64,000 bases of DNA. Origin: Piscicola geometra (Eukaryota; Annelida; Clitellata; Hirudinida; Piscicolidae). This document shows, in pieces, positions 2,663-63,766 of this stretch. The notes beneath the pieces were generated by a model. That model was not told the origin of the DNA, ran no database searches, and was given only the letters and a program-made list of their open reading frames with translations. The stretch is from NCBI GenBank assembly GCA_943735955.1, contig OX030959.1, positions 9,165,106 through 9,229,105 of the forward strand, read 5' to 3'. Positions within the stretch are counted from its first letter, which is position 1. Each line of letters starts with the position of its first letter. The translations under genes were made by a program, and so were the position numbers.

Positions 2663-5600
2663 CTCTAACAAATGCATCATCTCTCCTTCGGAGCTTGCCT
2701 TCATATTGAGCGTCTGCATGACTGACTCTTTCCACATCACCTTCACTCATCTTCACATCGCCTGCATCATCATCACCACCACTCTGCCTCCCTCCATCAT
2801 CATCACCACCACTCTGTTTCCTTCCATCATCATCACCACCACTCTGCCTCCCTCCATCATCACCACCACCGTCGTTCCCCTTCTCTTCTTCCCTTGACGA
2901 CGCCATCTTGTTATCGTCTTTGTTTGTCTTTCTATCTCTCTCCTCCGTCCTTCCTCCGTCAATCTCGCCTACTTCTTTCGTCTCAGATAAATATTTACTT
3001 TTATTTTTCCGCTTTTTCAAACGATTATCATTTTTATTATTGATTCTCCTAAAAGCTTCCTCTTCATCGCCATGCAATAAGTCGCTTTGAGCAGAATCGT
3101 CATCATCATCCTCTTCATCATTATCATCGTGATCATCATCTTTCTCATCATTATCACCACTTCTTCGATGTTTAAAGTCTCTTTTACCGTAACGATCTTC
3201 CTTCCTTCTGACCTTCCTGATGATGATCTCATCACGATTTCCTCCATCGACACCACTTCCATCTGCATCATTCTCACCCTTTGTTGTCTTTCTCTTACCA
3301 CCACCATCATCACCACCATCATCATCATCACCATCATCATCATCACCACCATCATCATCATCACCACCATCATATTTTTCTCCATGAGCATGTTCATTGT
3401 ACTCACCACCACCACCACGATCACCACCCTCCTCTTCCACCACCTTCAAACAACCCTCCTTCCCCTCCCTCTGAAACACCTGACGACAGCCCTGCCTGGA
3501 GACGGCAAACAGTGCCCACACTTGGAACTCTTGCCCATCGACTGACCTCTCCAGCACCCACTCGGCTGGCCTTGCAGAGTCGCCTGCAGTCAGCGCTATC
3601 GCTTCGATCTCCAGCACCTGCCATGCATGCCAATTTGGGACTATTTATAATCTTTTACCTTTTATTCTTTTTATTATATTATGTTTATTAGTTTTATTTC
3701 ATATAAACAAATCGATTTTTTAAACATATTTTTTCAAAAAAAACTTTTTTCCAATTCGATTAAGCAATCTTGCCTCTCATCGTCTGCAGTCTAGAGTTTC
3801 CACTGGCGCCTCGCTGAAGGCAACAAAACAACCACTGCCTCAACGTTCAAACATTTAATTTCATCTTCACGCTTTTTTTGCAACTTCTCAAATCGCTTCT
3901 ACAGCTCCAATGGTTTTTTGCAACACAGAAAGACACACAAACGTTCAAAACGCCTATTCCACTAAACCTTTCCGAGTAAATCACTGCACCAATACAAGCG
4001 GGCCTTATCTTATCTGCATCGGTCGTCCGATCATTCCGCATCATTCATTCAACGGTGCTGGCAGCGCGTGCCTCGATTGACGTTGTTGCCTGAATGCCTT
4101 CAACGATGAACACTCAAACTCTCGCGTAATGCAAATCGATAAAGTCGCAAAATCAATCTTGGCAACCGTATCAGATCGTCGCAGTTGCTGCAACTTCCGA
4201 ATCAAGGTCTTGTTTTTCGGTGCAATCATACACGAGAATTCGTTTTTTAAACACCGAAACTCAATTTTTAAGCCACTGCATCCACACAAATTCTCACCTC
4301 CACACAACCACCACAATCCACACAAACCCCCACCTCCACACAACCACCACAATCCACACAAACCCCCACCTCCACACAACTACCACAATCCACACAAACC
4401 CCCACCTCCACACAACCACCACAATCCACACAAACTCCCACTTCCACACAACCACCACAATCCACACAAACCCCCACCTCCACACAACCACCACAATCCA
4501 CACAAACCCCCACCTCCACACAACCACCACAATCAACACAAACCCCTACCTCCACACAACCACCACAATTCACACATCCAGCCGCACAAAACCACAATCT
4601 TCCGTCTCCCAAAAACCTGTTTCAAATCCATCGTAATGGTCACCCAACTGGCGCGTTCTCCCGTGGCGAGAGTGGGACCTTGCCAGGACTTGCTGCTGCT
4701 ACTGGAGGCTTCGAGGGTGTTGTTGATGCTGTGTGAGAGACCACCTTCATGGGAGGAGGAGCACAGACTGCAGGTGACTCTGTAGTTGGGTTCCTGAAGT
4801 CTGCAGTAGCGTTCGACACCGGCCTCACCACATGTGGCGTTCGCCTCGATGCTGGCGTACCGTGCCACGTTCACCGCCTTGGGATCTGTGAGGTGTGGGT
4901 TTGTGAGGGTGTTTGGGAAGAGTTTTTGATGTTTTATGATTTGTTTTTGTGGTAAATTATAATTTAAAAACATTATTGTATTAAAATTGATTTAAAAATA
5001 TTATTGTATTAAAATTGATTTAAAAATATTATTGTATTAATATTGATTTTAAAATATTATTGTATTAATATTGATTTTAAACTATTATTGTGTTAGTATT
5101 GGTTTTAAAGTATTGTTGTATTAATATTGATTTGCAAATATTATTGTATTAATATTGATTTAAAAATATTATTGTATTAATTATTTCTAACAATCATTGT
5201 TTTACTTTTAATTGTCAACAAATATTAAAGTTTCAATTTTGACTAAAAAAGTATTGTCTCAGTTATGAATAAAGTATAAAATTCTGTTGAAAAAAATGAA
5301 TGGTTGAAGAATATAAGTTAAAGCTTTCGAGTGATGAATAGTCATGAAAGCAATTTGTTAAACTAATGTAGGTTTCATTAGCGAGACATGCAACACTGTC
5401 ATACTTTTAATGCAGACTTGAATATATTCCCACGCGGTCCCTTCTTTTTACCGCAGATATCATCATACAACCATCCCACCTCCATCACTCAACCATCCCT
5501 CTTCCATCACTCAACCATCCCTCCTCCATCACTCAACTATCCCTCCTCCATCACTCATTCATCCCTCCTCCATCACTCAACCATCCCTCCTCCATCACTC

Positions 5601-61700: not shown

Positions 61701-63766
61701 AGTAGTGAGGAGTGAGTGAGTGGAGGTTGCAGTAGTAGTGAGGAGTGAGTGAGTGGAGGTTGCAGTAGTAGTGAGGAGTGAGTGAGTGGAGGTTGCAGTA
61801 GCAGTGAGGAGTGAGTGGAGGTTGCAGTAGTAGTGAGGAGTGAGTGAGTAGAGGTTGCAGCAGCAGTGAGGAGGGAGTGAGTGGAGGTTGCAGCAGCAGT
61901 GAGGAGTGAGTGAGTGGAGGTTGCAGCAGCAGTGAGGAGTGAGTGAGTGGAGGTTGCAGTAGTAGTGAGGAGTGAGTGAGTGGAGGTTGCAGCAGCAGTG
62001 TGTTCTGGAGGAGGAGTGAGTGAAGGCATGGAAGGGGAAGAGAAGGACAAACGTGCTGCTTGGACTTGCGCTTCGTCTTCTTCGTCCTCACCACCTGCAT
62101 GCCCTGCCACACCTCCTCCAACTGCCCTGCCTCCTCCCCCTCTCCTGCATCGATTCCCTCCTCCTTCTTCTTCTTCTTCTGCAAACATCACAAACATTCA
62201 CTCCTGCCTCACGCCCACATGCTCACCAACGAGGAACCAATTCCTCCACATCGCATATGAAACAGCACCGAAACAAAGCAAGAGACGAGTTGAAGGTAAC
62301 CTTGGAAACGACCTCCCCTTGCGTCCTGACCACTCCCTCCACACACACGCCCCTGCGTGCCAACAAGACGTTCGTTGCCGCCTTCAAATACGTCTGATGA
62401 TGATGGTGATAATGACGATGATGAAGATGATGATGGTGATAATGATGATGATGATGATGATGATGATGGTGATGATGACGATAATGATGATGATGACGAT
62501 AAGGATGATGATGACGATGATGATGATGATGATGGTGATGATGATGATGATAATGGTGATTGGTGTAGCATTGCCTATTTGGAATAGTAGCATGATGATG
62601 ATGAGAACGAGAAGTTTGAATGAACATGCATGGAGGGGAGCACGTGCCAACAAGCACACTCAGCCCACCACTTTGCAGTCTCCTGCACCACGAGCACCAG
62701 ACCCTGACCCTGCAACCAAACCACCTACCACTGCCACCAAACCACTACCACAACTACCTTACCACCAGCATACTACCACACCACAACAACCACAGTACCA
62801 GCACATCACAGCACCTACCATAAATGAAATATAACCATCACGTCACAGCACATCATATCTTCACCACAAACACCAGACCAATACTACTACCACACCACCA
62901 CACCACACCTACCACACCACACAAAACCATACCACACCTACCACACCACACAAAACCACACCACACCTACCATACCACACAAAACCATACCACACCTACC
63001 ATACAACACAAAACCATACCACACCTACCATACAACATCACCACACTCACTACAACACTACAACCTCACCACACTACACTCACCAGAGCAACCACCACAC
63101 CTAGCACACCACAAGCACCGCCACAACGGAGCACCACCTTATAGAGGAGTTTGCGGCTGTGGAGGTGGAAGACGTGGAGGAAGCGGTCGAGGCCTGCAGC
63201 GAGGAGGAGGGGCGAGGTAGAGGCGCATGTGAGAGCCCTCACGCCCCCCGAGGAACCCGCGTATGTGTGCACCAGCTGGCCTGTGTGTGTTTATGCGTGT
63301 GTGTGTGTGTGGTGTATGTGTGTGTGTATGTGTGTGGTGTATGTGTGTGTGTGTGGTTGTAGTTTGTGTGTGTGTGGTTGTAATTTGTGTGTGTTTGTGT
63401 GTGTGTGTATGTGTGTATGTGTATATGTGCGTGGTGTGTGTGTGTGTGTGTGGTGTGTGTGTGCGTGTGGTGTGTGGTTGTAGTTTGTGTGTGTTTGTAG
63501 TTTGTGTGTGTTTGTTATTATTAATAATAATATTATTATTATTATTAATAATAATATTGTTATTATTAATTGTTACTATTATTAATATAAAAAAAATATT
63601 ATTATTAATAATAATAATAATATTATTATTAATAATAATAAAAATATTATTATTATTAGCATTGTTATAATTATGCTGATGATGCTTCAGGCATGAGGGT
63701 GAACGACCTTTAGCTCTGAAGTCGAGCAAGCCAAGCAGGCCTTGGGAGTTGCCCACCACCACTTGT
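58767..63766 (-). CDS. WDR74: WD repeat-containing protein 74 (ribosome biogenesis), C-terminal part
   Basis: Five exons on the minus strand: 63708-63766, 63138-63280, 62301-62393, 62053-62178, 58767-58922, all GT-AG with agreeing phases. They encode QVVVGNSQGLLGLLDFRAKG, then GQLVHTYAGSSGGVRALTC and LLLAAGLDRFLHVFHLHSR, the last WD repeats; compare human GLAGSVRSLQ and LLASCGLDRVLRIH. YLKAATNVLLARRG corresponds to human YLKSQLNCLLLSG. EEVWQGMQVVRTKKTKRKSK and a basic C-terminus (ELRGKKRRRVQSL) with an Asp run follow, as in the nucleolar-targeting tail of WDR74. The protein is the partner of NVL in pre-60S assembly in the nucleolus. The N-terminal WD repeats lie right of the window. The last intron consists almost entirely of a 3-kb minisatellite. 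Confidence 0.92.
58940..61995. repeat. 33-bp minisatellite filling the last WDR74 intron, about 3 kb
   Basis: About 92 copies of a 33-bp unit (GGAGGTTGCAGTAGTAGTGA plus GGAGTGAGTGAGT). Two main forms alternate irregularly, GTAGTAG and GCAGCAG, with rarer GAAGAG, GGAGGGAG and TTACAG forms. A stretch with the rare TTACAG form recurs exactly 1023 bp apart (59516 and 60539), so a 31-unit block was duplicated. Minus-strand frames of 552 and 1105 codons span it because 33 is a multiple of three; the intron interpretation is favoured by phased donor and acceptor on either side. Confidence 0.97.
62395..62560. repeat. GATGAT microsatellite before WDR74 exon
   Basis: GATGAT/GATAATGAC repeats. In the gene sense ATC-rich sequence runs directly into the acceptor of exon 62301-62393 (ATCATCATCAG). 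Confidence 0.93.
62720..63120. repeat. ACCACACC-rich repeat after WDR74 exon 63138-63280
   Basis: CCACACCTACCATACCACAC-type units. In the gene sense it is G/T-rich and begins at the donor (AAG followed by gtggtgctcc). Confidence 0.88.
63285..63665. repeat. GT-rich then TTA/TAA microsatellites
   Basis: Interrupted GTGTGT (63285-63510), CA-rich in the WDR74 sense and ending at the acceptor CACACAG of exon 63138-63280, followed by TTATTA/AATAAT (63515-63660). Confidence 0.92.

Follow-up and report, generated by a model that had tools for sequence, protein, structure and literature searches.

Why tandem arrays in introns should lie against splice sites, and why they should differ in composition between the two ends of an intron, are questions raised by a stretch of 64,000 nucleotides (nt) of the Piscicola geometra genome (positions 9165106-9229105 of contig C5, GenBank OX030959.1, in an assembly of 171 Mb and 66 contigs), which is referred to here as the window. 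It holds animal genes for laminin, CNOT3, NDUFS7, INPP4, PDCD4, and WDR74, and Tandem Repeats Finder (TRF) assigned 28,218 of its 64,000 bases (44%) to 90 merged arrays, many of which are strongly skewed, with near-zero C or near-zero G on one strand. An earlier note on this DNA, whose gene names are agreed with here, had claimed that arrays just downstream of donors are rich in G and T in the sense of the gene and those just upstream of acceptors rich in C and A, and that the two kinds could pair and bring the ends of long introns together. We describe here the composition of intron ends in the window and in a set of kinase genes taken from the whole genome, and weigh the explanations that could account for it.

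Opposite composition of donor and acceptor ends

In the window, 32 splice sites (12 donors and 20 acceptors) were placed on the basis of tblastn matches, frame reading, and splice-site scores; they were hand-chosen and not exhaustive, and the exon list of the earlier note was left unused. The acceptor score used for these sites, and for the 60 kinase loci described below, has a pyrimidine term and is thereby biased against C/A tracts. At 7-107 nt into the intron, the fraction of G plus T on the sense strand (G+T) was 0.639 ± 0.063 at donors, exceeding 0.5 at 9 of the 12, and 0.286 ± 0.036 at acceptors, falling below 0.5 at 18 of the 20. Arrays within 100 nt of these sites were G/T-rich at seven of eight donors and C/A-rich at 13 of 15 acceptors, and an array edge lay at most 10 nt away at 11 of the 32 sites, as compared to 2.9% of random positions (p 9e-10). 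The opposite composition that had been proposed is thus borne out at independently placed sites, on genes of both strands, and the arrays abut the splice sites.

The polarity is not confined to the window. A Pfam kinase search of the assembly yielded 147 exon matches with strand, 13 of which were dropped since the domain lay mostly in one exon, leaving 134 partial matches in 98 regions; 60 of these regions were analyzed as kinase loci. From 75 matches, 59 donors and 61 acceptors were set near match ends (no acceptable donor could be set for 16 matches, and no acceptable acceptor for 14). At 7-30, 30-60, 60-100, 100-150, and 150-250 nt from the site, G+T was 0.671, 0.632, 0.612, 0.557, and 0.477 after donors and 0.354, 0.381, 0.430, 0.496, and 0.530 before acceptors, where the values near 0.5 beyond 100-150 nt partly arise because the measured stretch enters the next exon or the next intron end; the flanking exons had a G+T of 0.46-0.48. 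At 7-30 nt the base composition of the two sides was near mirror-image, with C at 0.090 after donors and G at 0.087 before acceptors, and the donor tracts were equally rich in T (0.336) and G (0.335).

Neighboring exons were then detected with a profile made from the kinase exons. With the pyrimidine term of the acceptor score set to zero, 80 of 86 adjacent pairs were resolved as phase-matched introns and six were left unresolved. The donor end was G/T-richer than the acceptor end in 63 of the 80 introns (p 1e-10), and the effect was strongest in long introns. In introns shorter than 130 nt, G+T was 0.474 at the donor and 0.434 at the acceptor end, with the donor end higher in nine of 16, whereas in introns of at least 250 nt the values were 0.679 and 0.300, with the donor end higher in 30 of 34. 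Polarity increased with intron length under control for GC content (r 0.33, p 0.002), and likewise with GC content under control for length (r 0.47). With measurements restricted to half-introns, donor G+T was 0.583 at 100-150 nt (n = 28) and 0.512 at 150-250 nt (n = 10), while acceptor G+T was 0.395, 0.411, and 0.400 at successive distances up to 400 nt (n = 28, 10, and 6); the acceptor-side signal may therefore reach further than the donor-side signal, with no upper limit set by these data.

Intron ends free of TRF arrays display the skew as well (0.602 at donors, 0.419 at acceptors), which rules out the arrays as its sole carrier and corrects the earlier view of polarity as a property of arrays. 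Among the eight introns of at least 600 nt, the share of sequence in arrays was 42% in the outer 150 nt and 17% in the middle. The long tandem repeats resemble an extreme form of the intron-end tracts. As judged by eye, a C/A-rich tract also precedes the AG of nine of 14 exon pieces of U2AF2. In two kinase loci, L020 and L035, GATGAT-type repeats lie close to both ends of introns, which are clear exceptions to the rule; one exon of L020 has reversed polarity, with a G/T content of 0.61 on its acceptor side and 0.43 on the next donor side.

Most acceptors of the longer introns have no U-rich tract. In introns of at least 200 nt, the 31 nt that precede the final three contained T at 0.22, C at 0.39, A at 0.31, and G at 0.08; a pyrimidine run of at least 8 was present in 10 of 45 acceptors and a T run of at least 4 in five, 15 of the 45 had no TT at all, and the median longest pyrimidine run was 5 nt. 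Introns shorter than 200 nt had a T content of 0.33, with a T run of at least 4 in 10 of 35 and a pyrimidine run of at least 8 in six. The branch-point motif YTNAY was no commoner in C/A-type acceptors than in shuffled sequences (20 of 36 versus a mean of 22.7). The commonest distinguishing 5-mers were CCACC, CACCA, and ACCAC for acceptors and TGGTG, GGTGG, and TTGTT for donors, CCACC occurring in 25 of 45 acceptor ends and no donor end, and TGGTG in 18 donor and four acceptor ends. Together with array periods from 2 to over 100, these words confirm that the signal is broader than AC/GT dinucleotides.

Arrays at individual splice sites of the window

On the minus strand, CNOT3 has a G/T-rich array at 17084-17489 (unit TGGTGGGTGCT in sense) that starts at donor 17488 (score 8.9; G+T 0.88 at 7-107 nt) and shares its intron with a C/A-rich array at 16351-16866, which ends 9 nt from acceptor 16341 (G+T 0.08). 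Another G/T-rich array (16081-16216) starts at donor 16215 (G+T 0.78); it also counts as one of the two acceptor exceptions, but in this short intron it really belongs to the donor end. The other such exception is the array at 23877-23919, of balanced composition (0.51). Further C/A-rich arrays lie 7 nt from acceptor 17624 (17632-17847), 12 nt from acceptor 21178 (21191-21271), and, as a CA-rich array, 1 nt from acceptor 22114 (22116-22199). The first of these would make an exception at its far end, near the unplaced donor of a large exon at about 17849. This exon end and that of INPP4 at about 50620, both followed by C/A-rich sense sequence, are two likely donor exceptions outside the 32 sites, their donors being unplaced. 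A (CA)n array in sense (20913-21033), situated in a 159-nt CNOT3 intron, fits acceptor 20905 and is the exception among donor-side arrays, at donor 21064; the earlier note had listed this donor end, of its intron 8, as an exception. Neutral composition was found at the donors CNOT3 23947 (0.47) and PDCD4 54711 (0.48), and composition of the wrong side at the acceptors CNOT3 23787 (0.54) and NDUFS7 27424 (0.59).

On the plus strand, an array of 18-bp units at 27790-28226 follows NDUFS7 donor 27777 by 13 nt and is nearly balanced (G+T 0.60), representing either a weak case or an exception, and a CA-rich array (28731-28845) ends 1 nt before the acceptor of the last NDUFS7 exon (28847). INPP4, also on the plus strand, has a 2.3-kb C/A array (48190-50530; G+T 0.07) 1 nt before acceptor 50532, a 1.95-kb C/A/T array (50786-52737) 17 nt before acceptor 52755, and a G-rich array (52858-53609) that starts 7 nt within the exon and holds donor 52865 inside its first unit. 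The 400 nt downstream of this donor hold 10 donor-like sites of equal or better score on the sense strand, and the opposite strand has none.

The remaining arrays belong to genes on the minus strand. In WDR74, a CA-rich array in sense (63282-63674) and a TCA-rich one (62395-62560) each end 1 nt before an acceptor (63280 and 62393), a G/T-rich array (62862-63113) lies 24 nt after donor 63137, and a C-rich array of 3.06 kb (58944-62000) lies 21 nt before acceptor 58922. Upstream zones free of AG precede two of the 20 window acceptors, namely WDR74 58922 (3080 nt) and INPP4 52755 (2001 nt). A C-rich array in sense (54243-54548) lies 30 nt before PDCD4 acceptor 54212, and a G/T-rich array (4280-4576) lies 40 nt after laminin donor 4616. 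The G/T-rich array that had been described behind laminin exon 3 is present (3297-3373), outside the 32 sites; the donor that it follows is judged likelier to be 3406 (score 9.5) than the site at about 2663 (score 8.5) proposed before.

The gene assignments are supported by tblastn with human proteins as queries for CNOT3, NDUFS7, WDR74 (one exon), INPP4 (two exons), and PDCD4 (two exons, one of them weak, with E 0.09); CNOT3 was also matched by the Not3 family, and laminin was assigned by frame reading only. The INPP4 exons placed are 50532 to about 50620 and 52755-52864. A gap of 200 N (53610-53809) separates the INPP4 exons on the plus strand from the PDCD4 exons on the minus strand; past this gap no more exons of INPP4 or PDCD4 were found, and the two parts may therefore be joined with some uncertainty. 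The two confirmed INPP4 exons are preceded by two minus-strand stretches (41564-43576 and 45275-47016) in which frame reading revealed frames resembling the reverse transcriptase of long interspersed nuclear elements, and a plus-strand frame at 12617-12820 resembles, by its motif, the closing part of a hAT-type transposase. Well inside contig C5, at 57902-57957, the telomere-like unit AACCCT forms a short array.

A proposed exon mark, possible pairing of intron ends, and slippage

We place about even confidence in the reading that the tracts are the two sides of a mark around the exons that border longer introns, which is expanded by slippage into micro- and minisatellites and read mainly by proteins. 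According to this reading, the 3' splice site would be preceded by a tract rich in C/A and poor in G, largely in place of the U-rich polypyrimidine tract, and the 5' splice site would be followed by one rich in G/U and poor in C, the second half of the mark. The tracts would be about 100 nt long or longer and weakest in short introns, and the chief role of each would be to help define the enclosed exon, as a binding platform or enhancer. Owing to their low complexity, some of the tracts would be expanded into micro- and minisatellites by replication slippage, and the resulting arrays would abut splice sites and keep their polarity. Selection through splicing would maintain this polarity, with the exon as its unit, and proteins rather than base pairing would probably be the main readers. 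Candidate classes of readers are PCBP, hnRNP K, hnRNP L, or YB-1-like proteins for the C/A tracts and CELF, TIA, or hnRNP H-like proteins for the G/U tracts.

An exon-centered mark is consistent with coordination across exons. Among 48 exons (37 from kinase genes and 11 from the window), the G+T of the acceptor tract before an exon was correlated negatively with that of the donor tract after the same exon (rho -0.47, p 0.0008), and the flanks of the same exon were more complementary than mismatched flanks (p 0.001, or 0.004 by rank), without any excess of direct similarity between own flanks (p 0.79, n = 48). A C/A-rich tract upstream (at most 0.4) was combined with a G/T-rich tract downstream (at least 0.6) in 18 of the 48 exons and the reverse was seen in one, both flanks being C/A-rich in three and G/T-rich in one. 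Several observations weigh against the exon mark as we propose it. In the 37 kinase exons alone, the correlation (rho -0.37, p 0.02) decreased to -0.27 and -0.23 after control for length and then for GC content, and was no longer significant; the excess in helix score between exon flanks rests on seven of the 48 exons and is gone in the 41 exons with scores below 30 (p 0.31); and flanks shuffled with preservation of dinucleotides retain most of the complementarity (19.2 of 20.5). The match between exon flanks is therefore mostly compositional. Moreover, U2AF2 genes and an ordinary U2 small nuclear RNA (snRNA) are present, and recognition of the C/A-type sites may be classical.

The explanation that comes nearest to the exon mark is pairing of the G/U-rich with the C/A-rich end of the same intron, which would join the splice sites and make a polypyrimidine tract and U2AF2 less necessary, as has been described in AC/GT introns of fish and lamprey; we regard it as possible although rather improbable. 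Polarity is greatest in long introns, as pairing would predict, and it raises the potential complementarity of donor ends with the acceptor ends of other introns (20.6, versus 14.5 with the acceptor end reverse-complemented; 40 introns). Donor 4-mer counts tracked those of acceptors with a rho of 0.82 as reverse complements, 0.69 as plain complements, and 0.26 on the same strand; the background is reverse-complement symmetric as well (0.955 for 5-mers), and the 4-mer correlation alone is consequently no proof of pairing. Specific pairing was assessed by comparing the Watson-Crick helix score of a donor end with its own acceptor end to that with the ends of other introns. Over all 91 introns the own-partner excess was weak (p 0.03 by mean, 0.006 by rank), and own pairs scored slightly above all 12 sets of dinucleotide-shuffled ends (17.8 versus 16.8-17.7). 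Just where help would be needed, the excess was absent: p was 0.13 for introns of at least 150 nt (n = 69), 0.23 for those of at least 200 nt (n = 52), and 0.19 for those of at least 250 nt (n = 40), and in longer introns dinucleotide-shuffled ends scored 19.2 as compared to 19.9 for the real ones.

Within introns, donor and acceptor G+T were uncorrelated (rho -0.09, n = 91, and -0.11 in a further test), including introns of at least 200 nt (rho -0.23, p 0.10, n = 52), and the donors of introns with a C/A-type acceptor were not significantly G/T-richer. A G/T donor end (at least 0.6) was combined with a C/A acceptor end (at most 0.4) in 25 of the 91 introns and the reverse in none, with both ends C/A in eight and both G/T in four; at cut-offs of 0.65 and 0.35 the co-occurrence of tracts in one intron had a Fisher p of 0.06 (80 introns) and of 0.38 in the 45 introns of at least 200 nt. 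RNAduplex found own ends to pair no better than permuted ends (p 0.46, 19 introns), although its energies hardly separate classes, as donor-donor pairing reached -28.1 versus -30.5 kcal/mol. Of the pairing proposed in the earlier note, and of the folding of intron ends suggested there as a check, what stands is the general complementarity and the weak excess in helix score over the 91 introns; specific pairing of the ends of one intron is not supported in longer introns. Finally, the tracts could also pair across an exon, by which skipping or circular RNA would be favored.

We consider it unlikely that the pattern is a neutral by-product, in which the surroundings of splice sites are skewed beforehand (G/T-rich after donors, and G-poor before acceptors through avoidance of AG), a slippage-rich genome expands them, and the arrays inherit the skew without function. 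Arrays do start at and include donors (INPP4 52865, CNOT3 17488 and 16215), tandem repeats make up 22% of 20 kinase loci of 10 kb, and the ends of an intron are directly similar to each other (p <1e-4), as local slippage predicts. Acceptor ends have fewer AG than GA (177 versus 217), but GA is in excess at donor ends as well (422 versus 294), and avoidance of AG is thus not specific to acceptors. Furthermore, the skew spans about 100 nt or more, is nearly mirror-symmetric, and occurs outside arrays; short introns of the same loci have little of it; and the low T before acceptors is the loss of a known signal, for which slippage gives no reason.

Selection on donor G runs (as enhancers of the hnRNP H or G-quadruplex type) and on an extended AG-exclusion zone at acceptors only, with the mirror symmetry as incidental, is very unlikely, for although 27 of 45 introns of at least 200 nt have GGG within their first 100 nt (with three or more runs in 13) and the AG-free zone has a median of 36 as compared to 24 in shuffles over the 80 kinase introns, next to the two window acceptors with 3080 and 2001 nt, a four-run GGG motif with short loops follows the donor in just five of the 45 (looser GG motifs in 12), the donor tracts are as rich in T as in G, and a shorter AG-free zone would need neither enrichment of A and C nor loss of T.

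Known introns, splicing machinery, and implications

In layout the tracts resemble those of the fish and lamprey class of introns; the differences concern the host, the type and length of the repeats, the occurrence of the signal outside repeats, and the place of coordination. In two reviews (PMC7404189, PMC9198270), these AC/GT-ended introns (Lin et al., Genome Res 2016) are described as a subset of introns with a G/T-rich 5' end and an A/C-rich 3' end, in agreement with the remark on teleost fishes made in the earlier note. The two systems have in common a G/T-rich 5' tract, an A/C-rich 3' tract, the involvement of repeats, and the possibility of pairing. The units in P. geometra are mostly not dinucleotides (GGT/CCA, GAT/ATC, and minisatellites of up to 3 kb), so that the wording "AC- and GT-rich tracts" fits whereas strict dinucleotide repeats do not, even though some arrays are (CA)n or (GT)n. 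The signal in this different host also lies outside arrays, and in its longer introns no matching within the intron was found and coordination was seen across exons instead. With intronic G-run or G-quadruplex enhancers near splice sites (PMC9065059), the donors share a G-rich sense strand; they differ from these enhancers by the scarcity of four-run GGG motifs (5 of 45), the equal share of T and G, and the mirrored C/A tract. No invertebrate report of the mirrored-tract pattern was found among the papers listed in searches of an open-licence library, which is weak evidence of absence.

The canonical metazoan 3' splice site has a polypyrimidine tract read by U2AF2. P. geometra shares with this arrangement the terminal AG, U2AF2 and U2 snRNA, and T-rich tracts in a subset of mostly shorter introns, and departs from it in the T-poor, A- and C-rich acceptors of introns of at least 200 nt, with their short pyrimidine runs. 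U2 snRNA is ordinary: of the 19 matches that passed the family cut-off, 18 were strong; eight U2 snRNA genes are clustered at a spacing of about 1 kb on contig C3 (9951634-9958706). Two multi-exon U2AF2 genes were found, on contigs C16 (4640506-4646168) and C1 (7088277-7096471), each with seven of the 20 matches; 13 of the 14 exon matches in these two clear genes have 49-84% identity to human U2AF2 and the remaining one 35%. The stretches KNFAFLE and FNLVKD are kept in both genes, and the C16 gene has FIACLPN in place of human FIGGLPN. A divergent single-frame relative on contig C5 (5561930-5563225; 28-36% identity) could belong to another family of RNA recognition motif proteins.

Tentatively, an animal lineage may have swapped the U-rich tract of its longer introns to a large extent for an A/C tract with a matching G/U tract after the donor, and its exons would then be defined by two mirrored signals of low complexity. 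From these, slippage would have produced kilobase minisatellites anchored on splice sites, with AG-free zones reaching 3 kb, and the kinds of 3' splice site may be divided between the two U2AF2 paralogues. The U-rich 3' tract is usually held to be general for animals, and the longer introns sampled here mostly do without it. Exon definition, and the extent to which RNA pairing or other proteins replace U2AF, thereby become directly testable, and the AG-free zones of 2-3 kb are natural tests of how far scanning from the branch point to the AG can reach. The positions of the tandem arrays would also be given a reason, in that arrays may grow out of splicing signals.

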